Positions 100 to 63,503 of a stretch of 64,000 nt of DNA are shown one piece after another. A program made the translations under genes and the position numbers. The notes under the pieces are model-generated. The model was not told the DNA's origin and did not search any database. It worked only from the letters and a program-made list of their open reading frames with translations. Every line of letters starts with the position of its first letter. Position 1 is the first letter of the stretch. Origin of the DNA: Lachnospiraceae bacterium (lineage in GTDB: Bacteria; Bacillota; Clostridia; Lachnospirales; Lachnospiraceae); NCBI GenBank assembly GCA_017448245.1, contig JAFSLV010000041.1, positions 62,001-126,000 of the forward strand. The letters are read 5' to 3'.

Positions 100-1497
100 T
101 TATGCGGGATACGCGCCGTTTGCGGTATCGGCGGAATGCAGATCCACCTTGGTCTGTTGTGCCTGACGGTATTTAAAATAGTCCATCGCCACCTGAGGGA
201 ACAGGGCATAGGACAGGGTATCTTCATCCTGCTGCTTGTATTCCTTGACCTCGTCTTCAAATTTGGCCAGCCCCGGTTCGAGCAGATCCGCCGGACGGCA
301 GGTGATGACCTCGCGGTCCCCGATGATCTTCTTTTGCACCTCGGGATTGATCGGCTTGATCGTCTGTCCGTAATTGCCGGAGACCAGGTCCTTGGTCTGG
401 TCGGTCGCGACCTTGTAGCGCTCTCCCATCAGCACGTTCATGACGGCCTGCGTGCCGACGATCTGGGAAGAAGGCGTCACCAGCGGCGGATCGCCAAAGT
501 CTTCGCGCACCCGCGGGATCTCTTCGAGCACGTCGCGGTATTTGTCGAGGGCATTCTGCTCCTTGAGCTGGCTGACCATGTTGGAGAGCATGCCGCCGGG
601 GACCTGGTACTGCAGCGTCTTGATGTCGACACCCAGGACCTTCGGGTCCATGAGCTTGCTCTCTAAGCACTCTTCCCTGTACGGCAGGAAATAGTCCGCG
701 ATTTCCGCAAGCAGATGCTGGTCAAGACCCGTATCATAGGGCGTTCCCTTGAAGGCCTCGACCATGACCTCGACGGAGGGCTGGGATGTGCCGAGGGCCA
801 GCGGGGAAATCGCGCAGTCGATGATATCCGCACCCGCTTCCGCGGCCTTGAGATACGACATCGCCGCTTCGCCGGACGTATAGTGCGTATGCACGTCGAT
901 CGGCAGGGAGGTCGCGCTCTTCATCGCCTTGACGAGCTCATAGGTTGTATACGGCAGGAGCAGTCCCGCCATGTCCTTGATGCAGATGGAGTCCGCCCCC
1001 ATCGCCTCGATCTCCTTGCAGATATTCATCCAGTAATCCATCGTATAGGCATCACCCAGCGTATAGACGAGTGCGATCTGCGCGTGGCCGCCTTCCTTTT
1101 TACAGGCTTTGACCGCGGTCTCCAGGTTGCGCAGGTCGTTTAAGCAGTCAAAGATGCGGATGATGTCCATGCCGTTGGCGATCGTCTTTTGCACAAAATA
1201 CTCGACGACGTCATCGGGATAATGCTTGTATCCGAGGATGTTTTGTCCGCGCAGAAGCATCTGCAGCGGTGTGTTTTTAAAGCCTTCTTTTAATTTGCGC
1301 AGACGCACCCACGGGTCCTCTTTTAAGAAACGCAGACACGCGTCAAAGGTCGCACCGCCCCAGCACTCGATCGAGTTGTAACCGACCGCGTCGATCTTGT
1401 CGATGATCGGCAGCATCAGATCGGTCGGCATACGCGTCGCGATCAGGGACTGGTGCGCATCACGCAGGGTGGTGTCTGTGATTTTGATCTTTCCCAT
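100..1497 (-). CDS. Oxaloacetate decarboxylase alpha / pyruvate carboxylase subunit B (5S-type carboxyltransferase)
   Basis: A 465-residue HMGL-like TIM barrel that moves CO2 between biotin and a 2-oxoacid (pyruvate/oxaloacetate). It opens with ITDTTLRDAHQSLIATRM, the family signature, followed by the ECWGGATFD segment, the metal-binding DVHTHYTSG stretch near residue 200 and the C-terminal PYC/OADA domain. It ends before any biotinyl domain, so it must use the separate carrier encoded at 2729-3118. The start has an upstream AGAAAGGAAAATAAC. It is the last clear member of a five-gene operon with the beta subunit, biotin carrier, gamma-like subunit and a 12S-like carboxyltransferase. The true substrate (oxaloacetate decarboxylation or transcarboxylation) cannot be told from sequence alone. 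Confidence 0.9.
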   Translation of the reverse strand: MGKIKITDTTLRDAHQSLIATRMPTDLMLPIIDKIDAVGYNSIECWGGATFDACLRFLKEDPWVRLRKLKEGFKNTPLQMLLRGQNILGYKHYPDDVVEYFVQKTIANGMDIIRIFDCLNDLRNLETAVKACKKEGGHAQIALVYTLGDAYTMDYWMNICKEIEAMGADSICIKDMAGLLLPYTTYELVKAMKSATSLPIDVHTHYTSGEAAMSYLKAAEAGADIIDCAISPLALGTSQPSVEVMVEAFKGTPYDTGLDQHLLAEIADYFLPYREECLESKLMDPKVLGVDIKTLQYQVPGGMLSNMVSQLKEQNALDKYRDVLEEIPRVREDFGDPPLVTPSSQIVGTQAVMNVLMGERYKVATDQTKDLVSGNYGQTIKPINPEVQKKIIGDREVITCRPADLLEPGLAKFEDEVKEYKQQDEDTLSYALFPQVAMDYFKYRQAQQTKVDLHSADTANGAYPA

Positions 1498-1559
1498 GTT
1501 ATTTTCCTTTCTTTTATGCTCTGTTCCGGCCTGTCAGTCGAAAATGCCGCAAGCCGCGC

Positions 1560-2687
1560 TTATTTCACTCCGAAAATCGCCATAAAGGTACCGGCAACCA
1601 CCGCCGTTCCTATGACACCTGCCACGTTGGGGCCCATCGCATGCATCAGCAGGAAATTGGTGGGATCGTATTCGGCACCGACCTTCTGCGACACACGGGC
1701 CGCCATCGGTACGGCGGACACCCCCGCGCTTCCGACGAGCGGATTGATCCGCCCCTTGGTGATCACGCACATGAGCTTGCCAAAGAGCGTGCCGGCCGCG
1801 GTACCAAAGGCAAATGCAATGAGTCCGAGCCCCACGATCTTGATCGTTGTCCAGTTGAGAAACGCCTCCGCGCTGGTCGTTGCGCCGACCGAAGTGCCGA
1901 GCAGGATGACCACGATATACATCAGCGCGTTACCCGCCGTCTCCTGCAGCTGGTGTACGACGCCGGACTCCCGGAAGAGATTGCCGAGCATCAGCATACC
2001 GACCAGCGGTGCGGTCGTGGGGAGGATCAGACATACGACGATCGTCACGATGATCGGAAAGAGAATCCGCTCGAGCTTGGAAACGGGACGCAGCTGCTCC
2101 ATCTTGATCATCTTTTCTTTTTTGGTGGTGAGCAGCTTCATGATCGGCGGCTGGATCATCGGCACGAGGGACATATAGGAATAGGCCGCCACCGCAATCG
2201 GGCCCAGGATATCCATCTGTTGGAGCTTACTTGCGAGAAAGATACTGGTCGGGCCGTCCGCGCCGCCGATGATCGAAATGGCGGCCGCAGCCTTGTCGTT
2301 GAACCCAAGGGCGATTGCCCCGAAATACGCGGCAAAGATCCCGAACTGCGCCGCGGCACCCATCAGAAACGAGACGGGATTGGCGATCAGGGGACCGAAA
2401 TCCGTCATCGCGCCGACGCCCATAAAGATGAGCGAGGGCAGGATCGCCCACTCATCGAGCAGATAGAAAAAGTGTAACAGTCCTCCCTCTTCCATGATCG
2501 GCGGATAGATATTGACGAGCAGCATACCAAAGGAAATCGGAATCAGCAGCAGCGGCTCCTTTTCCCTGGCGATGGCAAAATACAGAAAGATCAGCGCGAC
2601 ACATACCATCAGCACATTGCCGCCGGTCATCGTCGTAAATGCCGTCTGCCCCCACAGATTGGTCAGGGTATTTGTAATATAGTCCAT
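1560..2687 (-). CDS. Na+-translocating decarboxylase beta subunit
   Basis: A 375-residue multi-spanning membrane protein of the OadB/GcdB/MmdB family. It decarboxylates carboxybiotin and couples this to Na+ export. Family features are the [11 protein letters not shown] segment, the FGPLIANP segment, the [11 protein letters not shown] loop and the [15 protein letters not shown] region near the C-terminus. The start is preceded by ACGGAGGAAG. Its place between the biotin carrier and the 5S-type carboxyltransferase fits a complete membrane decarboxylase complex. Confidence 0.93.
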
Positions 2688-2728
2688 GAACTTCCTCCGT
2701 TATCCGTAAAAGAAATGAGGGCCGGTCG

Positions 2729-3118
2729 TTAATTGAGCGTTGCGAGTACCTGACCCGCTTCACAGGGTTCACCGACACCGATATCGATCGAAGCGACGGT
2801 ACCGGCCTCGGGCGCGACCATCGGGATCTCCATCTTCATCGACTCGATCGTCACCACGGTATCGCCCTTGCCGACGGCAGTGCCGACCGGCGCATCGACT
2901 CTCAAGACCTTGCCCGCGGCACCGGCCTCGATTTTGATGCTGCCTGCTCCGCCTGCGGCAGGCGCGGGAGCTGCGGGTGCGGGGGCCGCAGGCGCTGCGG
3001 CCTGCGCGGGCGCGGGTGCCGCTCTCCTTGCGCTCGAAACCGCGGGAGCACCCGCTCCGCCTTCCTCGACGGTGACTTCATATGCGTTGCCGTTCACGGT
3101 AATCGTGTAGTTTTTCAT
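2729..3118 (-). CDS. Biotin carboxyl carrier protein of the decarboxylase complex
   Basis: A 129-residue biotinyl carrier. The start MKNYTITVNG was chosen because AGGAGGG lies just upstream; the longer frame up to 3238 has no such site. The N-terminal part has the usual beta hairpin (NGNAYEVTVEE), then a flexible Ala/Pro linker (about residues 30-60), then a lipoyl/biotinyl domain with the biotinylation motif ESMKMEI. It shuttles CO2 from the soluble carboxyltransferases to the membrane beta subunit. Confidence 0.93.
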   Translation of the reverse strand: MKNYTITVNGNAYEVTVEEGGAGAPAVSSARRAAPAPAQAAAPAAPAPAAPAPAAGGAGSIKIEAGAAGKVLRVDAPVGTAVGKGDTVVTIESMKMEIPMVAPEAGTVASIDIGVGEPCEAGQVLATLN

Positions 3119-3137
3119 AAAAGATACCCTCCTGATA

Positions 3138-3626
3138 TTATGCTTTTTTCCAAGATGACGCATGACGGATGCGACGGATGCTGCGGACACGGTATGTGCC
3201 GTAGTCTCTCGTCGGATCAAAATCATCGACATATGCATCCGAATAGTCTCTTCCGGCCGCGTGTGAAGACGTCATCTCCGTTTCGTACGCATGGATGGCC
3301 GCGGCGATCACCGCGATCAGCTCGTCGGTGCCGATGTCCGCGTCCGCCGTAACGAGAGCCTGTGTCTTTTCTTCCTTTTGCGCAATCTGCCCGACCGTCT
3401 TGTCGATCGCATCAAGACGCATCTGCTTGTCTTCCTTTTTGCCCTGCTGGAGCTTTCCGATCATCGGAAATACGGAAATGACCAGCGAGATGATGATCAG
3501 CACAAGGAAGGCCATCCCCATGCCGAGCAGCGTATTATAGCCGGCATTGACGATCTCCTCGCTGCATCCGGTGAGGACGAGGATGGCGGTCAGGGTCAGA
3601 AAGCCACTCTGTCTGATATGCTTCAT
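3138..3626 (-). CDS. Decarboxylase gamma-like subunit (OadG family) with a lipobox
   Basis: A 162-residue small membrane subunit. The start MKHIRQSG follows ACGGAGGACAG. An N-terminal hydrophobic stretch ending LTAILVLTGCSEE reads as a lipoprotein signal with Cys about residue 21. A second membrane segment (GMAFLVLIIISLVISVF) follows, then a soluble region. The C-terminal half (DELIAVIAAAIHAYE) matches the OadG pattern, and the tail VRSIRRIRHASSWKKA is basic. The subunit normally holds the decarboxylase complex together. The lipobox before the transmembrane helix is unusual and could be a cleaved signal. Confidence 0.8.
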   Translation of the reverse strand: MKHIRQSGFLTLTAILVLTGCSEEIVNAGYNTLLGMGMAFLVLIIISLVISVFPMIGKLQQGKKEDKQMRLDAIDKTVGQIAQKEEKTQALVTADADIGTDELIAVIAAAIHAYETEMTSSHAAGRDYSDAYVDDFDPTRDYGTYRVRSIRRIRHASSWKKA

Positions 3627-3648
3627 ATGCTGTCCTCCGTTACGCGCA

Positions 3649-5079
3649 TCAGACCGCGCCGTGTTTTTTGACGGGTCTGTCTTCGCGCTTGGAATAGAGC
3701 ATTTCAAACGCACCGATCAGATATTTTCTTGTGTCTTTGGGATCGATGATCTCGTCGACCACGCCCCTGGCTGCGGCGCTGGAAGCGCTGTTTTGCAGCT
3801 TTTTGTATTCCGCTTCGATTTCCTTGACGGCGTCCGCGTCCTTTCCTTCACCGAGGATCTTTGCGGCCATCTCCGCACGCATCGTGCCGATCACGGAGGA
3901 AGGCCACATCACCTTGAAATCCGCACCTTTGCCGATGCTCATCATCACGATTGCGGCAAGGCCGTATGCCGATCCGGTCGTCAGCGTGACCTTGGGAACG
4001 GTGGCGTCCTTTAACGCATAGAGAAGGGAGGCGGCATGTGAGGCTCCGTACATCTCGTCCGCCATGTCCGCGTCAAATCCCTCCGCGTCCGCAAAGACGA
4101 GCACGGGGATCCCGAAGGCATCCGCAAAGCGGATCATTCCGGCTGCCTTTTTGCAGCCTGCGGCACTCAGTCTCTTTTCATATCTGGCCGTTTCCTTCCC
4201 CTCCTCATCCGTCAGTACGCTGCGGTTGGCGATGACGGCCACGGTCTGTCCGTTCAGTCGCAGGAAGCCTGTCGCCATCTCGGGCGCATAGGCTTTCTTT
4301 GTCTCGAAAAAGAGCGCATCATCGGCGATCATCGAAAGGGCTTTTGCGGGATCCGCACAGTTCTTTTCGATGCCTGAAACCTCCCGATTGAGATCGTCGT
4401 CGGCGGTGATAAAGGAATCGTCATCTTCGTTATTGGAAGGAAGCAGGGACATCAGTATCCGGATCTGACCGGGAAGCGAGGCTTCGTCGCAGACCAGGTC
4501 GATATCCGGTGTCTTTGCACTGCGGAACGCGCTTGCCGACGTGTCGCATTTTTCCCTGTAATTGTTGCTGACGGCGTCCGGCGGATTGAGGAAAAACCTG
4601 CCGTCCTTTTGTTCCATCAGGACAAAATCCGTCAGGGCGCACAGAATCGCCATCGAGCCTCCGCAATTGCCGCAGACCACGGAGATCTGCGGAATCACGC
4701 CCGAAGCGTCCGTCTGTTTGTCCGCAATCAGGGACAGGGCGCTGAGTGCGTCCGTCGCTTCCTGCAAACGCATCCCGGAAGAATCGATCAGACCGATGAC
4801 CGGTGCTCCCGTTTTCAGTGCAAGATCATAGAGTCTTGCGATTTTCCTTGCGTGCATCTCGCCCACCGAGCCGTTCAGGACGGATACGTCCTGACTGTAG
4901 ACATACACCAGACGGGATTCGATCAGACCGTAACCGGTGATCACGCCGTCGGACGGTGTATCCGCACGGCTGACCCCGAAATCGGTCGCGCGCGCACGCA
5001 CATCCGCGCCGATTTCGACAAAGCTCAGGTCATCGAGTATGGCATCGATTCGCTGCCTTGCCTTAGAAGAAACACTCAT
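3649..5079 (-). CDS. Carboxyl transferase domain protein (12S / MmdA-like)
   Basis: A 476-residue acyl-CoA carboxyltransferase homologue made of two crotonase-fold halves. The start MSVSSKARQR was chosen because of ACGGAGGTAGCAGC upstream. Family features are GLIDSSGMRLQEATDALSAL (first half oxyanion region), VCGNCGGSMAILCALTDF, and GSAYGLAAIVMMS plus MRAEMAAKIL in the second half. It is shorter and more divergent than MmdA (usually about 510 residues). It heads the operon, so the complex pairs a CoA-ester carboxyltransferase with a 2-oxoacid carboxyltransferase and a Na+ pump. Malonyl-CoA, methylmalonyl-CoA or glutaconyl-CoA are all possible substrates. Confidence 0.83.
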   Translation of the reverse strand: MSVSSKARQRIDAILDDLSFVEIGADVRARATDFGVSRADTPSDGVITGYGLIESRLVYVYSQDVSVLNGSVGEMHARKIARLYDLALKTGAPVIGLIDSSGMRLQEATDALSALSLIADKQTDASGVIPQISVVCGNCGGSMAILCALTDFVLMEQKDGRFFLNPPDAVSNNYREKCDTSASAFRSAKTPDIDLVCDEASLPGQIRILMSLLPSNNEDDDSFITADDDLNREVSGIEKNCADPAKALSMIADDALFFETKKAYAPEMATGFLRLNGQTVAVIANRSVLTDEEGKETARYEKRLSAAGCKKAAGMIRFADAFGIPVLVFADAEGFDADMADEMYGASHAASLLYALKDATVPKVTLTTGSAYGLAAIVMMSIGKGADFKVMWPSSVIGTMRAEMAAKILGEGKDADAVKEIEAEYKKLQNSASSAAARGVVDEIIDPKDTRKYLIGAFEMLYSKREDRPVKKHGAV

Positions 5080-5135
5080 GCTGCTACCTCCGTAGTGATT
5101 TTCATACGATGAATGGAATTGACCATACAAATACG

Positions 5136-5141
5136 AGTATA
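5136..5141 (-). promoter_or_regulatory. Probable -10 box of the decarboxylase operon
   Basis: A TATACT hexamer lies about 60 bases before the 12S-like start in an AT-rich 140-base gap after scpB. No good -35 stands at the usual distance, so activator dependence is possible. Confidence 0.4.
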
Positions 5142-5220
5142 ACACAGAAAAGACAAAAAAGATATAATAAATAAGTATGGTTGGACAGACAATACCTATC
5201 GGGACATGTGCGGGACGCGG

Positions 5221-7849: not shown

Positions 7850-8794
7850 TCAGCGTATGATCCATGCGAGCGTGAGGCTGATCCCGTAGAGAAACGTGGC
7901 GGCCGATGCGCGTTTCATGAGCGAGGGACGCAGCGCCTCCTGCCGGATCAGGCGCGCCTGCTTAAAGGAAAAGATCATCCCGACATGGAAGATGACCAGG
8001 GCGAGAACGGCAATCGGCAGCACGGGAAATCCGAGCGTCCGGAATCGGGGCAGAAAGACCACGACAAATACCCCCATCAGGGTGACCCAGACAAACATGC
8101 AGATCCTGTACAGGACGGCGGCGCGCTCCCTGCCGAGGAGAACAGGCAGCGTCTTTCTGCCCGATGCGGTATCCTTTTCCACGTCGCAGGTATTGTTGGT
8201 CAGCATGATCATCGCGATGCCGTAGGCGACCGGCAACGTCTCCAGCATAACGGACAGGCGTACGATGCCGCCCGTAAGCGAGATATAGCAGCCAAGGGGG
8301 ATGAGGCATCCCATGACAAATCCGGAGACGCACTCGCCGACCGGCAGATAGGACAGGGGTACGGGGCCTGCGGAATACAATATCACAACCACCGCACCTG
8401 CAAGTCCTGTCAGGAGTACCGGAAGGCCTCCTTTCATCACCGGAAGCACGGCCAGAACGGCCGCTGCCAGAAGGAAGCCCGTTCCGAGCATCAGTGCCTG
8501 TGCCGGCGGAATATTCTTGTATACCAGCACGGCATCCGTTTCTTCCACAGCGTCCTTTTCGGTGTCCGCTCCTTTTTTGAGATCGAAATAGTCATTGAAC
8601 GTATTGACGGCACTCTGCATCAGGATGCAGATCGCAAGCAGAACAAAAAACAGGGGAAGATCCAGAGTCTTTTGCTCGCTGAAGACGATTGCCGCAGACA
8701 AAAGAACCGGTGTCACGGACGCTGCCCAGGTATGCGGTGCCGCCAGCTGCAGTGCCGTCTTAGGCGTCAGATTCTGATGCTCTTTGTCAGCCAT
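7850..8794 (-). CDS. menA: UbiA-family prenyltransferase, likely 1,4-dihydroxy-2-naphthoate polyprenyltransferase (MenA-type)
   Basis: A 314-residue polytopic membrane enzyme with about eight to nine helices. It carries both Asp-rich motifs of the family: NTFNDYFD near residue 65 and NNTCDVEKDTASGRKTLP near residue 200, which bind Mg-diphosphate. MenA joins the polyprenyl tail to dihydroxynaphthoate in (demethyl)menaquinone synthesis. The start MADKEHQ has AGAGGTGATGAC upstream. Its 5' end overlaps the polyprenyl synthase gene, whose product would supply its substrate, and FixCX lies just above. Another aromatic acceptor cannot be excluded. Confidence 0.85.
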   Translation of the reverse strand: MADKEHQNLTPKTALQLAAPHTWAASVTPVLLSAAIVFSEQKTLDLPLFFVLLAICILMQSAVNTFNDYFDLKKGADTEKDAVEETDAVLVYKNIPPAQALMLGTGFLLAAAVLAVLPVMKGGLPVLLTGLAGAVVVILYSAGPVPLSYLPVGECVSGFVMGCLIPLGCYISLTGGIVRLSVMLETLPVAYGIAMIMLTNNTCDVEKDTASGRKTLPVLLGRERAAVLYRICMFVWVTLMGVFVVVFLPRFRTLGFPVLPIAVLALVIFHVGMIFSFKQARLIRQEALRPSLMKRASAATFLYGISLTLAWIIR

Positions 8795-9765
8795 GTCATC
8801 ACCTCTTTGATCCGTGCGGTATCTTCCCCGTCCGCGCATTCCGCAAGCAGTGTCAGAGCCCGCGCGGCATAGGCATCGATGCGTTCCTTTGTGTAACCGA
8901 GCGCGTCCGCTTCCCGAATCATACGCATCACATCCCGCTCGTTCTCCTCATCCATATGTCCTTTTTTTTCCAGAATCCGTTTCAGGGCGGCGCCGTCTTT
9001 CCCCTGCAGCGTATATAACAGGGGCAGCGTATAATAGCCCGCACGCAGATCGGCATGCACGGCCTTTCCCTCACTTTTCGCATCGGATACATAATCGAGG
9101 AGATCATCCCTGAGCTGGAATACATAACCGAAACAGATCCCCAGTTCCGACAGCTTCTTCATGATCCCGTCAGAGACCGCACACTCGATCCCCGCGATCC
9201 GGAAAGCCGCCGTAAAGAGTGCCACGGTCTTTCCCCGGATCATGCCCAGATACTGCTCTTCCGTCGTATCCGCATCAAAGCGCATCTCCATCTGCACGGT
9301 TTCGCCGATGCACATCTTTTCGACCGCAAGGGCGATCTCTTCTCCGGACCGGTTCATCCCGCCCTTTAACAGGGCGCTCAGCACGCGGCTCAGTAAAAAA
9401 TCCCCCGTATACACGGCGATGTTTTTTCCGTACGTTTCCTGTACGGTAGGCAGCCCCCTGCGTAAGGGGGCATCATCCACCACATCGTCATGCACGAGAG
9501 ATGCCATGTGTACGATTTCGAGCAGCGCTCCCAGCTTGATCAGCTTTTCCTTTTGTGCTTCCCCCGCACCGAGCGCACGCGCGGCAAGCAGCGTCAGCAT
9601 CGGTCGGATCTGCTTGCCGGGTGCCGTCAGCAGCTCCTCGATAATCGTGCGCATCGGTTGCAAAAGCCGTACATACGTCAGTGTATCGCGCATGTAGGCT
9701 TCCACACGGCTCATGTCATCGGAGAGAACCCCCCTGAGTCTTTCATATAATCCGGAGTCCTTCAT
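8767..9765 (-). CDS. Polyprenyl diphosphate synthase (trans, long-chain)
   Basis: A 332-residue trans-isoprenyl diphosphate synthase. It shows the GKQIRP segment near residue 49, the first Asp-rich motif HDDVVDDAPLRRG near residue 90 and the second motif QLRDDLLDY near residue 210. The start MKDSGLYERL lies 14 bases after the FixX stop; the frame extends further up without support. It builds the isoprenoid chain, most likely the quinone side chain used by the overlapping MenA-type gene. Confidence 0.9.
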   Translation of the reverse strand: MKDSGLYERLRGVLSDDMSRVEAYMRDTLTYVRLLQPMRTIIEELLTAPGKQIRPMLTLLAARALGAGEAQKEKLIKLGALLEIVHMASLVHDDVVDDAPLRRGLPTVQETYGKNIAVYTGDFLLSRVLSALLKGGMNRSGEEIALAVEKMCIGETVQMEMRFDADTTEEQYLGMIRGKTVALFTAAFRIAGIECAVSDGIMKKLSELGICFGYVFQLRDDLLDYVSDAKSEGKAVHADLRAGYYTLPLLYTLQGKDGAALKRILEKKGHMDEENERDVMRMIREADALGYTKERIDAYAARALTLLAECADGEDTARIKEVMTWLTKSIRI

Positions 9766-9779
9766 GTCTTTTCCGCACT

Positions 9780-10064
9780 TTATCCCTGCCGGTACTCGAT
9801 GCCCATGCTCCCTACGGGATAGTGCCACACACGTACGACCTTTCCGCCCGAGACCACGCGGCAGGTGCCGCATTCGAGGCATCCCTCGTGGTTAAAGATG
9901 ACCTGTCCGTTTTCGTATTTGTAGAGCTCCGCGGGGCAGGCTTTGACGACGCGCATGATCTCTCTTTCGTCCTTAAAGTCCGGATCGATCTCGATATGCG
10001 GATTGTGTTCGTCCGGATAAAATTTGTTGATACCCAGTTTATCGTCAACCGACATTTTTTTCAT
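9780..10064 (-). CDS. fixX: FixX-type ferredoxin
   Basis: A 94-residue iron-sulfur protein. The cysteine pattern, CPAELY near residue 43 and CLECGTCR near residue 61, is that of FixX / the ferredoxin domain of ETF:quinone oxidoreductase. It passes electrons with FixC from electron transfer flavoprotein to quinone. AAAGGAAC precedes the start. It follows fixC by about 40 bases. No fixAB (etfBA) genes are in the window. Confidence 0.92.
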   Translation of the reverse strand: MKKMSVDDKLGINKFYPDEHNPHIEIDPDFKDEREIMRVVKACPAELYKYENGQVIFNHEGCLECGTCRVVSGGKVVRVWHYPVGSMGIEYRQG

Positions 10065-10102: not shown

Positions 10103-11395
10103 TTACAGTGCTTTCAACGCGTCCATGCCGATGCCGGCCAGCTTAAAGATGCCGCCCGATTTTTTGAGTGCCGGCATCGCAAACTTCATCAGATGTCTTC
10201 TGGGATTGCCGTCGATCGTAAACATCTCGGAAAACACTTCCTTTGCCATGACCGGATATTTGGTAAAGATCTCCTTATGCTCCATCAGCTTCGGAGCTCT
10301 TGCGTGATGCATCATGTCGCGCATGACAAAGCTGTTGTCGAGCATTGTCTTGTAAGAAGACAGGGTCGAGGCGGAAAAATCTCCCTTTTCCTTTGCCTTG
10401 ATGATTGTCTCCGCGGCCAGCCTCCCGGACTCGATCGCAAAGTCCATGCCGCGCACGGTATAGGCGATATTGATGACCATGTTGGCCGCGTCGCCCGCAA
10501 GCAGCACACCGTCCCTGTACAGCGTCGGGATCATATTGTATCCGCCCTCGGTAACGAGGTGAGCGGAGTATTCGAGGAGCTTGCCGTCCTCGATGAGCGG
10601 TGCGATCGTCGGATGCTGTTTGACGCGCTCAAGGAGCTGCGGCACGGAGTATTCGGAGTTGCCGATCTCCGAGGCCGTCAGCACCACCGCAAGAGACAGG
10701 CTGTCCTTATTGGTATACAGACAGGCACCGCCGATGCCGCCGTCCGAAGGAAAGCCCGCCATCATCCAGGCACAGCCTTCACCGGGCGCCACGCCGAAAC
10801 GGTCGGAGATGACTTTTTCGTCAAGCCCGATAACTTCCTTGACGCCGACGGCGGTCTGATCCTGCGCGAGCTCTTTTTTCATGCCGAGACTCTGTGCGAG
10901 CGGGGAGTTGACGCCGTCCGCAAGGATTACAACGTCGGCCTCCATCTCTTCATCTCCGGCTTTGACACCGCAGACCTTTCCGTCTCTCACGATCATCTCG
11001 TCGGCATGGATCCCCGTGACAAACATCGCGCCTTCCGCTTCCGCTTTTTCCGCAAGCCATTTGTCAAATTTGGAACGCAGCACCGAATAGGACGCCGTTT
11101 CCTCCCTGCGCATGTCCTCATCGTTATACTCGATGGTCGTCGCCGCCGTTTCCGTCATCAGCGAGATCCGTTCTTTGGTGATCTTGCGCTCGATCGGCGC
11201 CTCGGAGGCAAATCCGGGAATGATCTTTTCGAGCGCATGCCCGTAGAGACGTCCGCCGGAGACGTTTTTGGCGCCGGCCCAGTTGCCTCTCTCCACCACC
11301 AGCACTTCCATTCCTGCCTTTGCCAGTGTCAACGCGGCCGTCGATCCCGCAAGACCCGCCCCGACAATGATCGCATCAAATCTGTCGTCGCTCAC
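10103..11395 (-). CDS. fixC: FixC-type FAD-dependent ETF:quinone oxidoreductase
   Basis: A 430-residue flavoprotein. It opens with the dinucleotide fold DAIIVGAGLAGSTAALTLAK and continues with NVSGGRLYG and GVLLAGDAANMVINIAYTVRG, all typical of FixC. The start was set at a GTG (11393-11395) because AAAGGAGA sits eight bases upstream. An upstream TTG in the same frame has no ribosome site. FixC oxidises electron transfer flavoprotein and reduces quinone, or takes part in bifurcation with FixABX. It is followed by fixX, a polyprenyl synthase and a MenA-type gene, so a membrane quinone is its likely acceptor. Confidence 0.92.
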   Translation of the reverse strand: MSDDRFDAIIVGAGLAGSTAALTLAKAGMEVLVVERGNWAGAKNVSGGRLYGHALEKIIPGFASEAPIERKITKERISLMTETAATTIEYNDEDMRREETASYSVLRSKFDKWLAEKAEAEGAMFVTGIHADEMIVRDGKVCGVKAGDEEMEADVVILADGVNSPLAQSLGMKKELAQDQTAVGVKEVIGLDEKVISDRFGVAPGEGCAWMMAGFPSDGGIGGACLYTNKDSLSLAVVLTASEIGNSEYSVPQLLERVKQHPTIAPLIEDGKLLEYSAHLVTEGGYNMIPTLYRDGVLLAGDAANMVINIAYTVRGMDFAIESGRLAAETIIKAKEKGDFSASTLSSYKTMLDNSFVMRDMMHHARAPKLMEHKEIFTKYPVMAKEVFSEMFTIDGNPRRHLMKFAMPALKKSGGIFKLAGIGMDALKAL

Positions 11396-11746
11396 GATAT
11401 GTTCTCCTTTCGTTCCCGGCAATCATCACGTTCCGTGATTCTCCGGATGTGCTTATGATACCATCCATGTTATGATTTGGGTGTCAAAAGTATTTCTTCA
11501 CTATTCCTGATATACGGATTGCTCCGTTTCTTCGAAACTCCCGCAATCCTGCGGCCATTCGGAATCCGCTGCAATGCCCAAAAAACGGGCATTTTGCTAC
11601 TTCCTCATGTCGGGCGGCGTCCAAAGTCATTCGACGATTCTTGCAAGCAAGATCGTCGTCATGACTTTTGACACCTGTATATCATGTTATCGTTATTATC
11701 CGCCTGACAAAAGTGCTATTTTTCGTCCGTCGCGGAAGGTATAACC
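11396..11746. other. 351-base gap without a gene
   Basis: No credible reading frame is present on either strand. Most of the gap is filled by an element with 12-bp terminal inverted repeats (11480-11675). The fixC side holds a GGTATCATAAG that could serve as a -10, but I see no matching -35 at normal spacing. Confidence 0.6.
11480..11675. repeat. 196-bp MITE-like element with terminal inverted repeats and internal hairpins
   Basis: The ends are perfect 12-bp inverted copies of GGTGTCAAAAGT (11480-11491 and 11664-11675). Inside, 11619-11674 can fold into one long hairpin of about 25 pairs with a few mismatches, and 11575-11596 forms a second hairpin (AATGCCC/GGGCATT). No clear target-site duplication and no gene are present. 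It may be a non-autonomous mobile element or a structured dispersed repeat. Confidence 0.55.
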
Positions 11747-12172
11747 TTACATCTGTGCGCGCCCCTGCGCGGGCGTCCCCTCCTGTGCGGCGGACAGGGA
11801 CTGTGTCCTTCTGGTGGGAATCACCCGGAAGAAATAAACCCAGTGGATAACGGCGAGCACCACGATGACGATGCGCGCCGGCCAGGGCGCATAATAGAAT
11901 CCGAATGCCTCAAATGCCGTTGCGATCGCGAGGATCTTCAGCTTTGCGGAAAGCGTCATGGTCTTTGTGGCCATAAACTCCGACAGGTATCTGTCATAGA
12001 GCCCGGTGGACGCAAACCATGCGTGAAACCGCTTTGATCCCCTGGCAAAGAAAAACAGGGTCAGCAGATACAGCGGCGTCGTCGGCAGCACCGGTAGAAA
12101 AATCCCGACGGTTCCGAGTGCCAGACAGATACATCCCAGTGCAATAAAGATCAGATTGATTGCTTTTTTCAT
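11747..12172 (-). CDS. DUF454 (YbaN-like) inner membrane protein
   Basis: A 141-residue membrane protein. The N-terminal run LGTVGIFLPVLPTTPLYLLT is the DUF454/YbaN signature, followed by FFFARGSKRFHAWF. Two further helices lie at about residues 77-115. The function of the family is unknown. GAGAGGACAGG precedes the start. In some bacteria relatives sit near haem or respiratory genes, which matches this setting, but that is only context. Confidence 0.85.
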   Translation of the reverse strand: MKKAINLIFIALGCICLALGTVGIFLPVLPTTPLYLLTLFFFARGSKRFHAWFASTGLYDRYLSEFMATKTMTLSAKLKILAIATAFEAFGFYYAPWPARIVIVVLAVIHWVYFFRVIPTRRTQSLSAAQEGTPAQGRAQM

Positions 12173-12208: not shown

Positions 12209-12580
12209 TCACGATGCCTTCTTGGCGGCGGCTTCCTGTTTCGTAAAAATCACGGTAATGTCCGCACCCTTTTTGAGGCCCTTTTTGCGGTAGCGCTCGA
12301 TATGCTTAGGATTGGCGGGAAACCATCCCTTGACAATGCGGTCCTCCTGCTCGAAGAGTTCGATGATGCTCCACAACAATGAGCATCCGAGACTCCCGAA
12401 GAGAATGGAGATAAACGCGTTGTCCATCGCAAAGGAAATCCCGATGGAGATCGTTCCCAGTACCAGAAACACCGGCCAGCAGTTTTTGGTAAAATAGTAC
12501 TCCGCATAGATGACAATCGGATGAAACAGCCCGATCATCGCAAAGCACGCAACACCCGTGATGAGTCCCGTCCAGTTCAT
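12209..12580 (-). CDS. DUF4491 family membrane protein
   Basis: A 123-residue protein starting MNWTGLITGVACF, with FHPIVIYAEYYF near residue 20, SIIELFEQEDRIVKGWFPAN near residue 70 and three predicted helices. These segments match the DUF4491 family of anaerobic Firmicutes and Bacteroidetes, whose function is not known. AAGGAGGGGACGAT precedes the start. It lies directly below ccsA in the cytochrome maturation run. Confidence 0.85.
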   Translation of the reverse strand: MNWTGLITGVACFAMIGLFHPIVIYAEYYFTKNCWPVFLVLGTISIGISFAMDNAFISILFGSLGCSLLWSIIELFEQEDRIVKGWFPANPKHIERYRKKGLKKGADITVIFTKQEAAAKKAS

Positions 12581-12613: not shown

Positions 12614-13435
12614 TCAGCCGTAGCTGTGCAGACCGCCAAAGATATAGGTCACGCCGAGCAGGGTAAAAAGCACGGCGACAAAGCCGATGACGGCCAGATA
12701 ACAGCCCTTTCTTCCGCGCCAGGCGGGTCGTAAGCGCAGATGCAGATAAATGGCATAGATAATCCAGGTGATCAGCGCCCACGTCTCTTTGGGATCCCAG
12801 GTCCACCAGCTCCCCCAGGCCTCCTCCGCCCAGATCGCACCGGTGATGATCAGAAGCGTCAGGAAGATAAAGCCGACCACGACCGAATTGAACATCATGC
12901 GTTCCAGAAAAACACCGCGGTTCTTTTTCTCTTCCGGAATGCCTCCCTGAGGCTCCTTGCGCGGCATGATGATCAGATAAAAGACAGCCACGCCGGCCGC
13001 CAGCGCAAACGCGCTGTAGGAGATGATCGCCGTCATCACGTGCGACACGCGCCAGTTGCTCTGCAACGCGGGAAGCAGGGGCCCTCCGACATCGGTCTTT
13101 CCGAAAGAAATGCCGATCAGCACGGCGCAGATCACCAGAATGACCGCCACGGGCCCGTAGGAGCGAAATCTCAGGGAGATAAAGACGGCCACGCACAAAA
13201 TGGCAAAGGACAGCACGATCAGATACTCAAAAACGCTGTTCAGCGGCAGACGGCCGACCTGCATCGTACGGTTCACGACGGCGATCAGCATACACACCGC
13301 GCCCGCCGCATTCAGGACCAGACCCGCTTTTGTCAGCCATGTCCGTTTCAGAAACAGATGCAGCACATACGCCGCGGCTGCCATGATCGTCACCAGAAAC
13401 GCATAATAGCTCATCGTTTCGACAATTGTAACCAT
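12614..13435 (-). CDS. ccsA: Cytochrome c maturation protein CcsA/ResC (haem handling, WWD domain)
   Basis: A 273-residue polytopic membrane protein. The tryptophan-rich haem-binding motif WGSWWTWDPKETWALITW lies near residue 200, flanked by histidines expected to bind haem (NWRVSHVMTAI, and HLRLRP). With ResB it forms the system II synthase that attaches haem to CxxCH motifs outside the membrane. CGGGGGAGAAACCA precedes the start. The only c-type cytochrome in the window is the peroxidase just upstream. Confidence 0.95.
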   Translation of the reverse strand: MVTIVETMSYYAFLVTIMAAAAYVLHLFLKRTWLTKAGLVLNAAGAVCMLIAVVNRTMQVGRLPLNSVFEYLIVLSFAILCVAVFISLRFRSYGPVAVILVICAVLIGISFGKTDVGGPLLPALQSNWRVSHVMTAIISYSAFALAAGVAVFYLIIMPRKEPQGGIPEEKKNRGVFLERMMFNSVVVGFIFLTLLIITGAIWAEEAWGSWWTWDPKETWALITWIIYAIYLHLRLRPAWRGRKGCYLAVIGFVAVLFTLLGVTYIFGGLHSYG

Positions 13436-13457: not shown

Positions 13458-14432
13458 TTATTTCTCTTCCGTGATCTCTTGTTTCATCATATGGCTGTAG
13501 CGGATCACAAGTCCCGCCAGCACAAGGAAAAAGCCCGTGAAAATCACCCTGACGCCCGGGTCGTATTTGGCCTGCAATCCGGTGTAATAGCCGTAATCGT
13601 CAAAGGTCAGCCACACCCCTTCCGTCACCTGCGTCTGTGCGCCCTTTTCGAGCACATTCATGGCAACGGGCTCGTCGTTTTCGGTGAGCACCCACAAAAG
13701 CCGCGGATTGTCATCCCGCATGTTTTTTACTTCCGTGATGGCCTCTCCCTCCTGATAGTCCGGATAAAAGGTCAGTCCCAGCCTGACGCTTACGGTCTCG
13801 TCCTCGACCAGCGGAATCCACTCCTCATCACGGAGTTCAAAGGTCCTTTGCGCCCTTCCGGAGGAGAGCGTTGCGGTAAATGCCCAGCCGTAGTTTTGCT
13901 GGATAACGGTCACGCCGTCATATCTGGCGGGTCCGTTGACATAAGCGGAAAGCGACGCCGACGAACCGTCTCTTTTCGTGATCGTCAGATCGGTGATGTA
14001 TTGTCTGGGCGTCACCCGGTCCTCATAGTATTCCACACGGAAATCATCGATCCGCATCTCCAGTGTGCCGCTGCGGCCCGCCACCTGTGCCGTTTCGCCG
14101 ACAGGGATTTCATAGTAGGTCTGGCGGCCGATGAGCCAGCTCATAAAGGCGCCCGTCATCACCACGATCAGTCCGGCGTGCAGCACTGGCGAACCCCATA
14201 CATGTAAACGGAACTTTTTTTTACTCTGCCTGCGTGCCCATCCAAGCCTTCCAACGGTACACAGAATCAGATTGACGGCAAATAACGCACCGAGCAGGTA
14301 CATCGGAACAGAATGAATCAGATGCAATTCCTCACTCAGCGTATCCAGTACACAGAGGACGGCAATGGCCGTCAGCAGTATCACCGTCAGCTTCAGTGAC
14401 GTGAAAAAACGATAAATTCTGTTGTTAATCAT
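13458..14432 (-). CDS. resB: ResB-like cytochrome c maturation protein
   Basis: A 324-residue protein with three N-terminal membrane helices (SLKLTVILLTAIAVLCVLD, then PMYLLGALFAVNLILC, then LHAGLIVVMTGAF), a large outer domain and a C-terminal helix (VIFTGFFLVLAGLVIRYSH). The order and the IHSVPMYLL and WGSPVLHAGLIV segments match ResB/Ccs1. It is shorter than the usual 450-550-residue ResB, as in compact anaerobe versions. It works with CcsA to present apocytochrome and haem. Confidence 0.9.
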   Translation of the reverse strand: MINNRIYRFFTSLKLTVILLTAIAVLCVLDTLSEELHLIHSVPMYLLGALFAVNLILCTVGRLGWARRQSKKKFRLHVWGSPVLHAGLIVVMTGAFMSWLIGRQTYYEIPVGETAQVAGRSGTLEMRIDDFRVEYYEDRVTPRQYITDLTITKRDGSSASLSAYVNGPARYDGVTVIQQNYGWAFTATLSSGRAQRTFELRDEEWIPLVEDETVSVRLGLTFYPDYQEGEAITEVKNMRDDNPRLLWVLTENDEPVAMNVLEKGAQTQVTEGVWLTFDDYGYYTGLQAKYDPGVRVIFTGFFLVLAGLVIRYSHMMKQEITEEK

Positions 14433-14527: not shown

Positions 14528-16033
14528 TTATTCCTCATCCCCGTAAGACGGATAAATATTATTGCTGGGATAGAAGTCATACGTCATGTATTCGTTTTCT
14601 CCCGTCAGCGTCATCAAAAACGCCACAATCTTATTTACCTCGTCATCCGTCGGTTGCGGATGATCCGTCTGGAAGCGGAACATGGTGCGTACCGCCTGCT
14701 GAATCGACAGCTGCGTGCCGTCATGGAAATACGGCCCCGTCAGTTCCAGATTACGGAGATTCGGGACTTTGAATCTGTACATATCGGACTCGACACCGGT
14801 CTCCGCATAGCGGCCCATGTCGCCGTCCTCAATGCCGTAGCCTCTTTCCTCAAAGTACACCGCGGCATCCGTCACCGTACCGAGCAGCTCAAAGGACTGT
14901 CCGCCCATGCTGGCGCCGGTATGGCAGGTTGCACAGTAATACTTTTTGAAAAGTTCGTACCCTTGTGCCGCATCCGCTGAGATCGCAGAATCGTCTCCCA
15001 TCAGATAACGGTCAAACGGGCTGTTCGGGGTGATCAGCAGTTTTTCGAATTCGGCAATGGCCTGCGTGATGGTATCCACGTTGATATTGTCCTTGCCGAA
15101 GACCGCCTCAAATCTTTTGACCATCTCCGGATCCTCGCTTAAGCGATCCGCGATGTCTTCCCAGGATTCCGAACCCATCTCGACCGGATTGGTCGGGGGT
15201 CCGGCTGCCTGTGCATGAAGATCGGCAGCCCTGCCGTCCCAAAATTGCAGTACGTTAAATACCGCATTGTACACCGTAGGCGCGCTGACGCCGCCCAGAT
15301 TGCCGGTGATGCCTCTTGCGTGAGGCTGTCCGTCTTCACCGCCGTGTGACAGCTGGTGGCAGGAGGCGCATGCCAGGGTGTTGTCCCCGGAGAGTCTGGT
15401 ATCATGGTACAGATCCAGACCCAGCATCGCCATCTCCATATCGACGCCGTATCCCGGTTCCGGTAAGATCATGACCGGCTCGGAAACCGCTCTCTCGAGC
15501 GACGCGTCATCCAGGTTCATGCCGTAGTTTTCGGCAAATGCCGTCACCTGAGCGGTCTTCTGCTCTCTGACCCAGTCCAGTACGATCTGCTGCTCCTCGC
15601 CGTTAAGCGAAGAACCGGGATGTACCGTCGCATAGGAAGTGACGGGCATCGAGTTGTTTCGTACGCTCTGTTCGATCTTGGCGACCGTCGGCGCATCCAA
15701 CACCTCCCCCGCATTTACCTGTTCCACCACTGCCTCCAGGTCGATGAACCGATACGCATTCTGTTTATCCTGCGCAATCGTTCCGGAGACACCCGGCAAG
15801 CCCTCATACCAGACTGCCGGAGGATTTTCCGCATGACACGCCAGACATCCGTTGTTCTCGAGAACCTGCACGAATCTGCCGTCCGTTGTGTCTGCGGTGA
15901 TGGCCCTGCCGCTCATGCTCACTCCGATATATGCAATGACGCATACGATCAGCGCGACAAGTACGGCCAGCCACCATTTCTTTTTGGAACTGCCTGTGTT
16001 TCCTGTTTCTTTGGTGTTTTGTTCATCAGCCAT
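14528..16033 (-). CDS. Membrane-anchored tri-haem cytochrome c peroxidase (quinol-peroxidase-like)
   Basis: A 501-residue protein. A single helix (about 20-38, WWLAVLVALIVCVIAYIGV) anchors it and leaves the rest outside. Three haem c sites are visible: CLACH (63-67) in an extra N-terminal domain, CASCH (222-226) and CATCH (367-371) in a MauG/CcpA-type di-haem peroxidase core. The core also has QFWDGRA and the catalytic NPVEM segment near 282. Classical CcpA has two haems and is soluble. The extra anchored haem is the layout of E. coli YhjA, which takes electrons from quinol. The start MADEQNTKE follows AAGGAGAG. It heads a run with resB and ccsA and has its own promoter. Confidence 0.9.
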   Translation of the reverse strand: MADEQNTKETGNTGSSKKKWWLAVLVALIVCVIAYIGVSMSGRAITADTTDGRFVQVLENNGCLACHAENPPAVWYEGLPGVSGTIAQDKQNAYRFIDLEAVVEQVNAGEVLDAPTVAKIEQSVRNNSMPVTSYATVHPGSSLNGEEQQIVLDWVREQKTAQVTAFAENYGMNLDDASLERAVSEPVMILPEPGYGVDMEMAMLGLDLYHDTRLSGDNTLACASCHQLSHGGEDGQPHARGITGNLGGVSAPTVYNAVFNVLQFWDGRAADLHAQAAGPPTNPVEMGSESWEDIADRLSEDPEMVKRFEAVFGKDNINVDTITQAIAEFEKLLITPNSPFDRYLMGDDSAISADAAQGYELFKKYYCATCHTGASMGGQSFELLGTVTDAAVYFEERGYGIEDGDMGRYAETGVESDMYRFKVPNLRNLELTGPYFHDGTQLSIQQAVRTMFRFQTDHPQPTDDEVNKIVAFLMTLTGENEYMTYDFYPSNNIYPSYGDEE

Positions 16034-16087
16034 TGTGCTCTCCTTGTTTTCCAACAAAGCCAAGAAACAATTATAGTAATCTTTATT

Positions 16088-16116
16088 ATTATAGCGGCGT
16101 GAAAAATATTTCGCAA
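16088..16116 (-). promoter_or_regulatory. Promoter of the tri-haem peroxidase operon
   Basis: TTGCGA (16111-16116) and TATAAT (16088-16093) are 17 bases apart. The leader before the ATG is about 50 bases. Confidence 0.75.
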
Positions 16117-16129
16117 TGAAAAAAATAAA

Positions 16130-16151
16130 CAAAATAATTATTCTTATTTTG
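16130..16151. promoter_or_regulatory. AT-rich palindrome upstream of the peroxidase promoter
   Basis: CAAAATAA and TTATTTTG form perfect 8-bp arms around a six-base centre. The site lies about 20 bases upstream of the -35, a position suited to an activator or upstream repressor. Fur/PerR-type or redox regulators bind AT-rich palindromes of this size, but the sequence does not match their consensus closely. Confidence 0.4.
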
Positions 16152-16204
16152 GATATTCTGTAAAAAGATGAATTTTTAGGGAACTATTTAATTTTGCACA
16201 ACAG

Positions 16205-61931: not shown

Positions 61932-63503
61932 TTATGAATTACAGCCGGCAAGAATGTAATGATCTTTGATCGTATATATGCAATCCGCCACCTCATCCAG
62001 CTCCTTCCCGTGCATAACGGCAATAATCGTGCGGCTTCCCTTGATCTCCTCCAGATACCTGATCACATTTTCCTGCGTTTGTATATCCAGATTGGACAAC
62101 GGTTCATCCAAAAAAATGACGGGCGCATCCTGACTCAAAACGCGCAGCAGTGACAGTTTTTGCTGTTGTCCGTAGCTCAGGTTAATATTACTGCTGTCAA
62201 TCTCTTTTTCGGCAAAGTCGATATTGAGGATTTCCGTCAATGCTTTTTGAAGCGGTATACCAAACAGATTATCCTCCAGATTGCCGTCAACCGCAAAAAA
62301 CGGATAGGTCAGCATGACGGTCTGATCAATATCCTGTGACACATGAAAATCTCCTTTGGAAAAAGATGCATCCACATTTCCAAGTAAAAAGTTTAAGAAC
62401 ATGGTTTTTCCGCTTCCGTTTTCTCCCTTGAGTACGTATAAACCGCCTTTTTTGATATCCATTTTTTCTGCCGAAAAAAGATAATCCTGCTCCTCCGGTC
62501 CCTTATACAGATCGAGTGACTCGGTTTTGAACAGGTACTCTTTTTCTGTCTTATGCAAAGCGTTTTGATCGGGAAGCTGACTCTGCGCATCCAGATTGTC
62601 CACACGGTCAATATGCACCTTGCTGGAGCGGTAGCGCATCACAATACCGCAAATTGTCGCGACGGGATCCGCAAGATAATCCATATAATGATATACCATC
62701 AGCAGAACGCCGAGCGTCAGAGCCCCGCGCATCACCATCATCGAGGCGATAAACAAAAAGCAAACCTTAAATATCTGGCTGATTTGCCCGGGCATATACT
62801 GTGCAAGATAATCAAAAAACCGGTATCTCAGGATATGTTTACAGTATTTTTCAGAGATATCATAAAACCTGTCCGAAAAAAAACCATCTACATGCAGCGC
62901 ATTGATACCCGTCTTGTTTTCGATGATATTTCTGGAACGTCCGAGATATACGTCCTGCTTTTCCACCACATCCTTCTGCATATGAAATAACGGCTTTGAA
63001 GCATTGAGCGATATTACCGCCAATACAATCATATAGAACAAAAAGAATACAGTCAGTATCGGACTGATATAAAAAATGACCGCCAGGATCATGACGGCAA
63101 AAATGACATTTCCAATCAGTCTTAAATGAATTTCTTCATGAAGATCGCCGTAGGCAGCGCAACTGTTAGAGCACAGATTATAATAATATCCTTTTTCCTC
63201 CTTGACATATTCGGGCTGTGACAGACGCAAAATGTTTCTTAAAGATGCTCTTTCCAGTATAAATGTATTTTTAATTCCGAGCTTTATCGGAGTATATTGT
63301 AAAAAATAAAAAGAAGTCATCCCTCCCAGAAGCACCGTTACGAATGTTAATGCAAACCACCATGTCAGATGTTCCCATTGTTCGGTCAACAGAATGTGAT
63401 CCACGAGATACTCCAACAGATACGGATACACCATGGACACCAGAAATGACAGAACCATCAAAAGTATATAACCATGGTACTTTTTGAGTACAGTTGTTTT
63501 CAT
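61932..63503 (-). CDS. ABC exporter, fused permease and ATPase
   Basis: A 523-residue transporter. Five to six helices (about 10-290) are followed by a nucleotide-binding domain with KGENGSGKTMFLNFLLG (Walker A), NLSYGQQQKLSLLR (signature; the usual SGGQ is SYGQ) and VIFLDEPLSNLD (Walker B). The start MKTTVLKKYH follows GTGGAGATGATCGC. Base composition is visibly AT-rich relative to the flanks. A short coding-like frame ends at its start (ATGA overlap), which suggests loss of an upstream partner gene. Substrate unknown; peptides are typical of the class. Confidence 0.88.
   Translation of the reverse strand: MKTTVLKKYHGYILLMVLSFLVSMVYPYLLEYLVDHILLTEQWEHLTWWFALTFVTVLLGGMTSFYFLQYTPIKLGIKNTFILERASLRNILRLSQPEYVKEEKGYYYNLCSNSCAAYGDLHEEIHLRLIGNVIFAVMILAVIFYISPILTVFFLFYMIVLAVISLNASKPLFHMQKDVVEKQDVYLGRSRNIIENKTGINALHVDGFFSDRFYDISEKYCKHILRYRFFDYLAQYMPGQISQIFKVCFLFIASMMVMRGALTLGVLLMVYHYMDYLADPVATICGIVMRYRSSKVHIDRVDNLDAQSQLPDQNALHKTEKEYLFKTESLDLYKGPEEQDYLFSAEKMDIKKGGLYVLKGENGSGKTMFLNFLLGNVDASFSKGDFHVSQDIDQTVMLTYPFFAVDGNLEDNLFGIPLQKALTEILNIDFAEKEIDSSNINLSYGQQQKLSLLRVLSQDAPVIFLDEPLSNLDIQTQENVIRYLEEIKGSRTIIAVMHGKELDEVADCIYTIKDHYILAGCNS

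Follow-up and report, generated by a model that had tools for sequence, protein, structure and literature searches.

A probable quinone-linked tri-haem peroxidase cassette in a few Lachnospiraceae

Quinol-dependent tri-haem peroxidases have been characterised as YhjA of Escherichia coli, PerC of Zymomonas and QPO of Aggregatibacter, according to one study (PMC10301912), which also reports, citing other work, that hydrogen peroxide (H2O2) serves as a respiratory acceptor via YhjA in E. coli. All three enzymes come from Gram-negative bacteria. Here, we describe an enzyme of this layout in a fermentative clostridial lineage without detectable cytochrome bd. Its gene lies at 14528..16033 on the minus strand of a 64,000-nucleotide stretch of a Lachnospiraceae genome (contig JAFSLV010000041.1 of assembly GCA_017448245.1, forward-strand positions 62,001 to 126,000), the whole of which is referred to below as the window. 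We consider it likely that the product, P0001, is a tri-haem peroxidase of YhjA/QPO type anchored in the membrane and that, in a few Lachnospiraceae, it acts as the terminal enzyme of a quinone-linked module for reducing H2O2. The kind of enzyme is already known; what is new is the compact cluster of tri-haem peroxidase, haem attachment, electron-transfer flavoprotein (ETF):quinone oxidoreductase and quinone tailoring in a clostridial fermenter. No report of such a cassette was found in the open-access literature among the matches listed.

The open reading frame (ORF) occupies exactly 14528-16033 and encodes 501 residues, with a ribosome site, AGGAGAG, immediately 5′ of the ATG. A single strong hydrophobic segment is centred on residues 22-40 (19-residue window, mean hydropathy 2.8; next-best window 0.94) and forms a predicted membrane anchor spanning residues 20-40 (15914..15976); hydropathy identifies an N-terminal hydrophobic segment in 5/5 Lachnospiraceae peroxidases. 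Two Pfam domains score over curated cut-offs: Haem_bd at residues 50-156 (E 4e-19) and CCP_MauG at residues 200-348 (E 5e-55). The protein has three CxxCH motifs. CLACH (residues 63-67, 15833..15847) belongs to the added N-terminal domain and aligns with YhjA C59-H63, whilst CASCH (222-226, 15356..15370) and CATCH (367-371, 14921..14935) are the P-haem and E-haem motifs, aligned to YhjA C207-H211 and C351-H355, and NPVEM is found at residues 282-286. The best PDB match is 9qdt_A (E 2.2e-94, residues 56-479). As all 417/417 residues of this chain align to E. coli K-12 yhjA with no mismatch visible, we take 9qdt to be the structure of YhjA, in which the same Haem_bd domain scores 104.7 bits. A match of this strength over this span argues that the layout of P0001 is not due to chance. 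The helix, the added CxxCH domain, the di-haem CcpA/MauG-type core with NPVEM and the YhjA layout had all been proposed in a preliminary description of this DNA, and each is borne out.

We then mapped haem ligands and active-site residues in an alignment of 32 rows. In YhjA the N-terminal haem is ligated by H63 and M125, and W250, Q260 and E270 are given roles in electron passage and at the active site in the same study (PMC10301912). These five residues correspond to H67, M129, W265, Q275 and E285 of P0001, so that the N-terminal haem ligands could be matched as the preliminary description had suggested; Met129 (15647..15649) is the predicted distal ligand. For the corresponding M125A variant of YhjA, a high-spin N-terminal haem and reduced activity are reported (PMC10301912). 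The two Cys, His and Met of the N-terminal haem are conserved in 20/20 tri-haem rows, as is the E-haem Met. The column holding the distal P-haem His of 1eb7 is occupied by Ile in P0001 and by Ile or Val in 20/20 tri-haem rows. A P haem lacking a distal His would require no reductive activation. This is a loop region in which just 3/13 of the other rows have His, however, and P0001 has other His in the loop (discussed below), and the column therefore says little about the P haem.

A tree was built from 34 rows trimmed to the catalytic core, to keep the N-terminal domain from influencing the grouping. The rows comprised P0001, 4 other Lachnospiraceae proteins, YhjA, 9 further named loci, 4 di-haem proteins from the phylum search, 2 PDB chains and 13 of 187 plasmid records chosen to span tri- and di-haem forms. 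All 20 tri-haem rows fell, together with 3 di-haem rows, into a group of 23 with support of 98/98. The five Lachnospiraceae rows form one group (100/100) whose neighbour is a Vibrio protein (94/90, not starred), and the simplest reading is that the lineage acquired a tri-haem gene once, from an outside source. Four Bacillota di-haem proteins resembling cytochrome c peroxidase (CCP; from genomes G819, G1093, G1072 and G1115) share the CCP_MauG core with P0001 but lack a Haem_bd match and lie outside the group of 23. P0001 thus sorts with the tri-haem enzymes when compared with YhjA and di-haem peroxidases, and a soluble two-haem peroxidase carrying a chance CxxCH is ruled out by the domains, the haem ligands and the tree. 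Only 28% of bootstrap trees contained a branch that separated the tri-haem rows from all others, and the extra haem may have been gained or lost within the group. With three di-haem rows inside the group, monophyly of the tri-haem form is not shown. Separately, we observed that three of the four Bacillota di-haem proteins (L049, L050 and L052) have Phe or Tyr at the position of the E-haem Met of CCP, and these proteins may therefore not be ordinary peroxidases.

Compared with the described enzymes, P0001 shares with E. coli YhjA (Ccp) the N-terminal hydrophobic helix, a Haem_bd domain with aligned His and Met, the E-haem Met and the Trp/Gln/Glu active site. It differs in having about 40% identity and a longer C-terminal tail. 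The gene settings are also distinct: yhjA lies between gadA and treF in E. coli, whereas the P0001 gene is clustered with genes for ResB/CcsB and FixCX. The comparison with QPO and PerC is at the level of the class description (PMC10301912).

The cluster extends downstream of the peroxidase gene, with all genes on the minus strand. Next to the peroxidase are genes for ResB (13458..14432; PF05140, 86.3 bits, over cut-off) and CcsB (12614..13435; TIGR03144, 217.9 bits, over cut-off), which belong to the System II cytochrome c assembly pathway. In 5/5 genomes carrying the peroxidase, the cassette's ResB is the single ResB locus, and no second ResB was found in the genome of the window. These are followed by two genes of unknown function, DUF4491 (12209..12580; PF14898) and DUF454 (11747..12172; PF04304), and then by adjacent genes for a FixC/EtfC-type ETF:quinone oxidoreductase (10103..11422; NF007450 over cut-off) and a FixX/EtfX ferredoxin-like subunit (9780..10064; NF011993, 92 bits, against a cut-off of 166). 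The first PDB matches of FixC and FixX are Thermotoga maritima EtfC and EtfX (7koe_C, E 5.8e-74; 7koe_D, E 4e-17). The likely start of fixC is a GTG at about 11395, as suggested by the position of the ribosome site and by comparison with the relative at locus L003. Finally, there is a HepT-like polyprenyl diphosphate synthase (8767..9882, likely start about 9765; PF00348 over cut-off, TIGR02748 the best NCBIfam model but below cut-off) and a MenA-like prenyltransferase of the UbiA family (7850..8839, likely start about 8794; PF01040 over cut-off, MenA models the best NCBIfam matches but below cut-offs).

To compare the cassette among genomes, 17 window proteins were searched by tblastn against stretches from three Lachnospiraceae metagenome-assembled genomes (loci L002, L003 and L004) and from G301, a genome of the same family with locus L044. 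The order peroxidase, ResB, CcsB, FixC, FixX, polyprenyl synthase on one strand recurs in 4/4 loci that are long enough (the window, L003, L004 and L044); L002 stops inside ResB. All nine cassette genes are present at L004, whilst L003 is without DUF4491, DUF454 and UbiA, and the MenA-like prenyltransferase joins the cassette at two of the four loci. The polyprenyl synthase at L044 has 37% identity to that of the window and is followed downstream by DUF4491. None of 8 outer window neighbours was found by tblastn in the stretches examined of L002, L003, L004 and G301, and the block therefore stays together while its flanks change. Moreover, at 13 other peroxidase loci, both tri- and di-haem, no match at 1e-5 to the window's FixC, FixX, HepT or UbiA was found in the stretches examined, and no relative turned up when viral contigs were scanned with FixC. 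We also note that in Phocaeicola (L055:746-3763) a tri-haem peroxidase gene lies directly after a 294-residue ORF and a CcsB-like gene with 31% identity to the window's CcsB. This suggests that the tri-haem peroxidase and System II haem attachment are paired in Bacteroidota too.

We sought the likely source of electrons in the five carrier genomes, that of the window (G000) and G301, G397, G398 and G399. An ETF search of G000 and G397-G399 identified one EtfAB pair each in G000, G398 and G399 and no match in G397; the G301 pair was seen at L044. There, the genes directly downstream of the cassette, on the opposite strand, encode an acyl-CoA dehydrogenase and the EtfA and EtfB subunits. For the two G000 subunits, matches to CarE/CarD reach 338 and 239 bits and those to T. 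maritima EtfAB 330 and 196, compared with 183 and 115 for 1efv. Scores are far higher with 6fah (CarED), 4kpu, 5ol2 and the T. maritima Etf, of which we take the first three to be bifurcating ETFs, than with 1efv, presumably human ETF, or 1efp. The single EtfAB pair of G000 resembles bifurcating ETFs and may itself bifurcate. Five acyl-CoA dehydrogenase matches were identified in G000, and the ETF may therefore also be fed from acyl-CoA, or may serve these enzymes instead of FixCX. In all five cassette genomes, acyl-CoA dehydrogenase domains occur in open frames of 643-796 codons (e.g. G000:C8:17940-18278), a length that suggests fusion proteins. EtfABCX of T. maritima oxidises NADH and reduces ferredoxin and menaquinone, as PMC10734219 states. 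In that system and in FixABCX of Azotobacter, both electron-bifurcating quinone reductases, the C and X subunits are encoded together, as in the cassette. The etfAB genes differ in position, being on a separate contig in the genome of the window, though they adjoin the cassette in G301.

The supply of quinone was assessed with searches for UbiA, MenD and MqnA. A MenA-like UbiA was identified in 4/5 carrier genomes, being on contigs other than that of the cassette in G398 (63%) and G301 (39%), and no UbiA like that of the window was found in G397, the smallest assembly. One UbiA was found in each of 5 genomes of the same genus lacking the peroxidase, and the window UbiA matches none of these at 1e-5; the single protein scanned among them was closest to decaprenyl-phosphate phosphoribosyltransferase (88 bits, below cut-off). 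MenD was over cut-off in 0/5 carrier genomes. Its 11 matches, at 40-76 bits against a cut-off of 244, were taken for other thiamine-diphosphate enzymes; the model also matches in 14/14 control genomes. The MqnA match in G000 was below cut-off, and those in G398 and G399 scored 30 and 32 bits against a Pfam cut-off of 26; all three were set aside. By eye, the MqnA-like ORFs of G399 (L032, 363 residues) and G000 (L034, 388 residues) were taken for ABC-transporter binding proteins, because their N-termini are lipoprotein-like and the G000 ORF is followed by a permease-like ORF. Since neither headgroup marker tested is over cut-off in the genome of the window, we propose that demethylmenaquinone would be made from scavenged 1,4-dihydroxy-2-naphthoic acid (DHNA). 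A precedent exists in Lactiplantibacillus plantarum, a DHNA-using bacterium capable of extracellular electron transfer, which has prenyltransferase and polyprenyl synthase genes (DmkA/DmkB) without the rest of the pathway and for which a quinone from external DHNA has been proposed, according to PMC10746273. The genome of the window likewise has such genes with neither tested headgroup marker over cut-off, but the terminal step of the cassette would be a haem peroxidase and not ferric reduction, and the use of salvaged DHNA is our proposal.

From these observations, we hypothesise that electrons from NADH or acyl-CoA dehydrogenation would pass through EtfAB, FixX and FixC to a naphthoquinone, probably demethylmenaquinone, that the polyprenyl synthase and the MenA-like enzyme would make with DHNA from other microbes. 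The quinol would then reduce the N-terminal haem (His67/Met129), from which electrons would move to the E haem (His371 and the conserved Met), the P haem and H2O2, outside the membrane. ResB and CcsB would attach the three c haems. We infer from sequence that quinol is the direct donor, that H2O2 is the physiological substrate, and likewise the topology, the direction of electron flow and the salvage of DHNA. The preliminary description had suggested respiratory removal of H2O2 by an enzyme of quinol-peroxidase layout, and this interpretation is supported. The genes for FixCX, the polyprenyl synthase and the MenA-like enzyme lend independent support to the link with quinone; dependence on quinol itself is unproven by sequence, and the proposed quinol residues of YhjA are not kept. 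If the pathway operates as proposed, it would constitute a minimal portable respiratory chain for H2O2 and a means to re-oxidise the quinone reduced by an EtfABCX-type complex. It would also offer an explanation of how peroxide could be put to use by an anaerobe living close to the oxygenated gut wall, and it predicts cross-feeding of DHNA.

Any gain in energy would depend on bifurcation and on a ferredoxin-oxidising pump. We tentatively raise the possibility, which we think less likely than not, that H2O2 drives electron bifurcation, with EtfAB-FixCX splitting NADH electrons equally between ferredoxin and a quinone built on scavenged DHNA that the peroxidase re-oxidises. Were this the case, peroxide formed at sites of oxygen leakage from the gut wall would be a source of energy for a fermenting lineage, which would rely on neighbouring microbes for both oxidant and quinone headgroup.

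Several observations weigh against a quinone-linked peroxidase module. In PMC10301912, Y19, Y25 and D30 of the YhjA helix are proposed for quinol contact and W135 is proposed to pass on the quinol electrons. The first three correspond to I33, S39 and a gap in P0001. In 4/5 Lachnospiraceae rows, W135 is replaced by Pro (P139 in P0001) and the calcium ligand N235 by Ser, both residues being kept in G301. These same four rows contain a pair of His in the P-haem loop (His230 and His238 in P0001), neither of which is present in G301, and these could change the P-haem ligand. The helix residues are not general among the 20 tri-haem rows. As the set including W135 was presented as a proposal, and Y19 is Tyr in only 6 of the 20, we have not treated it as defining. 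Moreover, the assignments of the MenA-like enzyme, HepT and FixX all fall below NCBIfam cut-offs, the quinone-gene searches covered MenD, MqnA and UbiA, and G397-G399 come without a stated completeness. The search for cytochromes c with the Cytochrome_CBB3 model (E up to 1) is weak, because even the peroxidase fails to reach the cut-off of the model in 5/5 genomes (E 0.03 in G301). Lastly, the cluster may be split into two transcription units by a 324-bp gap 5′ of fixC, which contains an inverted-repeat element.

The most serious alternative, although we think it improbable on balance, is that the tri-haem peroxidase is mainly a surface defence against H2O2, that the quinone genes serve another end such as flavin or metal reduction, and that their proximity reflects co-regulation. 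An energy-conserving partner is not shown, and YhjA has been named a front-line defence against peroxide, though the same source (PMC10301912) also judges it, on kinetic grounds, to be ineffective in defence and mentions that a respiratory role has been proposed. Set against this, FixC, FixX and the polyprenyl synthase follow the peroxidase in the same order in 4/4 loci and cytochrome bd was found in 0/4 genomes searched (G000, G397-G399), and the defence and respiratory roles are in any case compatible.

We find it unlikely that electrons arrive from a soluble carrier, such as a cytochrome c, a cupredoxin or a flavin, as in a classical di-haem peroxidase, instead of from quinol. The substitution of the quinol-contact residues and W135 described above would fit such a donor. 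The N-terminal hydrophobic segment of the five Lachnospiraceae proteins argues otherwise. With Cytochrome_CBB3, the best match is the peroxidase in 5/5 genomes and no other falls below E 0.01, a result of little weight in G301 and one that covers neither cupredoxins nor flavoprotein donors, which were not searched; the next match in G000 (0.0114) is a 117-residue frame with CxxCH that appears noise-like by eye.

It is very improbable that P0001 is an oxidase of the MauG or MbnH type, acting on another protein instead of removing H2O2. MbnH and MauG models are the best NCBIfam matches, but they score far below cut-offs (159 against 363 bits for MbnH, 145 against 444 for MauG). A Tyr at the position of the E-haem Met marks MauG, and this column is Met in P0001. 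Nor was a gene for a substrate protein recognised nearby, and we have set this function aside on the scores and the E-haem Met.

We next examined how widely the gene is distributed, using family, class and phylum samples drawn from larger groups. PF03150 matched in 4 of 397 family genomes, over cut-off in 3. Relatives of P0001 were identified only in G000 and G301 (2/397), as phmmer at 1e-5 gave none in the stretches from the other two genomes. P0001 was found in 1 of 391 class genomes, G000 itself, and in 0 of 5 other genomes of the same genus, which are 99-100% complete. Among 398 phylum genomes there were G000 and four others, and in these four no match began before residue 185. The closest named relatives are three proteins with 75-76% identity from Lachnospiraceae metagenome-assembled genomes of goat and water-buffalo reticulum. 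A phage collection gave 5 matches, 4 of them in records named Salmonella or Escherichia. The gene is thus rare, and the clostridial setting noted in the preliminary description is confirmed. Rarity in family, class and genus would suit an artefact of binning or assembly from a proteobacterial or Bacteroidota contig, an explanation to which we give almost no credence, as the gene lies inside a 224-kb contig of matching G+C (0.54-0.57 across the cluster as against 0.53-0.59 over the first 30 kb) and four further genomes carry it (the three metagenome-assembled genomes and G301), three of them on contigs with the rest of the cassette, whilst L002 ends inside ResB. The assembly is 99.47% complete with 0.92% contamination, and the contig also carries alaS, glyS, era and scpAB genes, read by eye from translations without a family scan. 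In another genome of the family (L046, G297:C22:484000-500000) we observed two long frames, of 785 and 1788 codons, that each contain two CxxCH motifs. At 1e-5 there is no match between either frame and P0001, and the first matches PF03150 weakly, suggesting that other kinds of c-type cytochromes may exist in the family.

Upstream of the peroxidase gene, a consensus scan identified a sigma-70-like promoter, TTGCGA-17-TATAAT (16088..16116, minus strand), in a region where 15 such sites were found against 5.7 expected. Similar hexamers were seen by eye 5′ of the gene at L002, L003, L004 and L044. In these regions and in the window (16034-16180), AT-rich imperfect inverted repeats of the GATAAT-N7-ATTAC type overlap the -10 region, again by eye, and a second AATAATAATCATTA-like motif was seen in this way upstream of the gene at L003 and L004. 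An operator for a Fur- or PerR-family regulator upstream of the peroxidase gene is possible. PerR-box scores reach at most 11/15 in each of the five upstream regions, without a computed background.

The gap 5′ of fixC holds a 196-bp stretch (11480-11675) bounded by perfect 12-bp inverted repeats, GGTGTCAAAAGT and ACTTTTGACACC. The 15 bases at one end have a single occurrence in the window, against 0.01 expected, and a search of 94 loci for a 10-base core found it in none. The stretch resembles a small non-coding mobile element. Elsewhere in the window, genes at 100-5145 on the minus strand encode, from their translations, a carboxyltransferase, a membrane subunit like that of a Na+ pump, a small gamma-like protein and a biotin-carrier protein, which together resemble a decarboxylase of oxaloacetate or methylmalonyl-CoA that pumps sodium.

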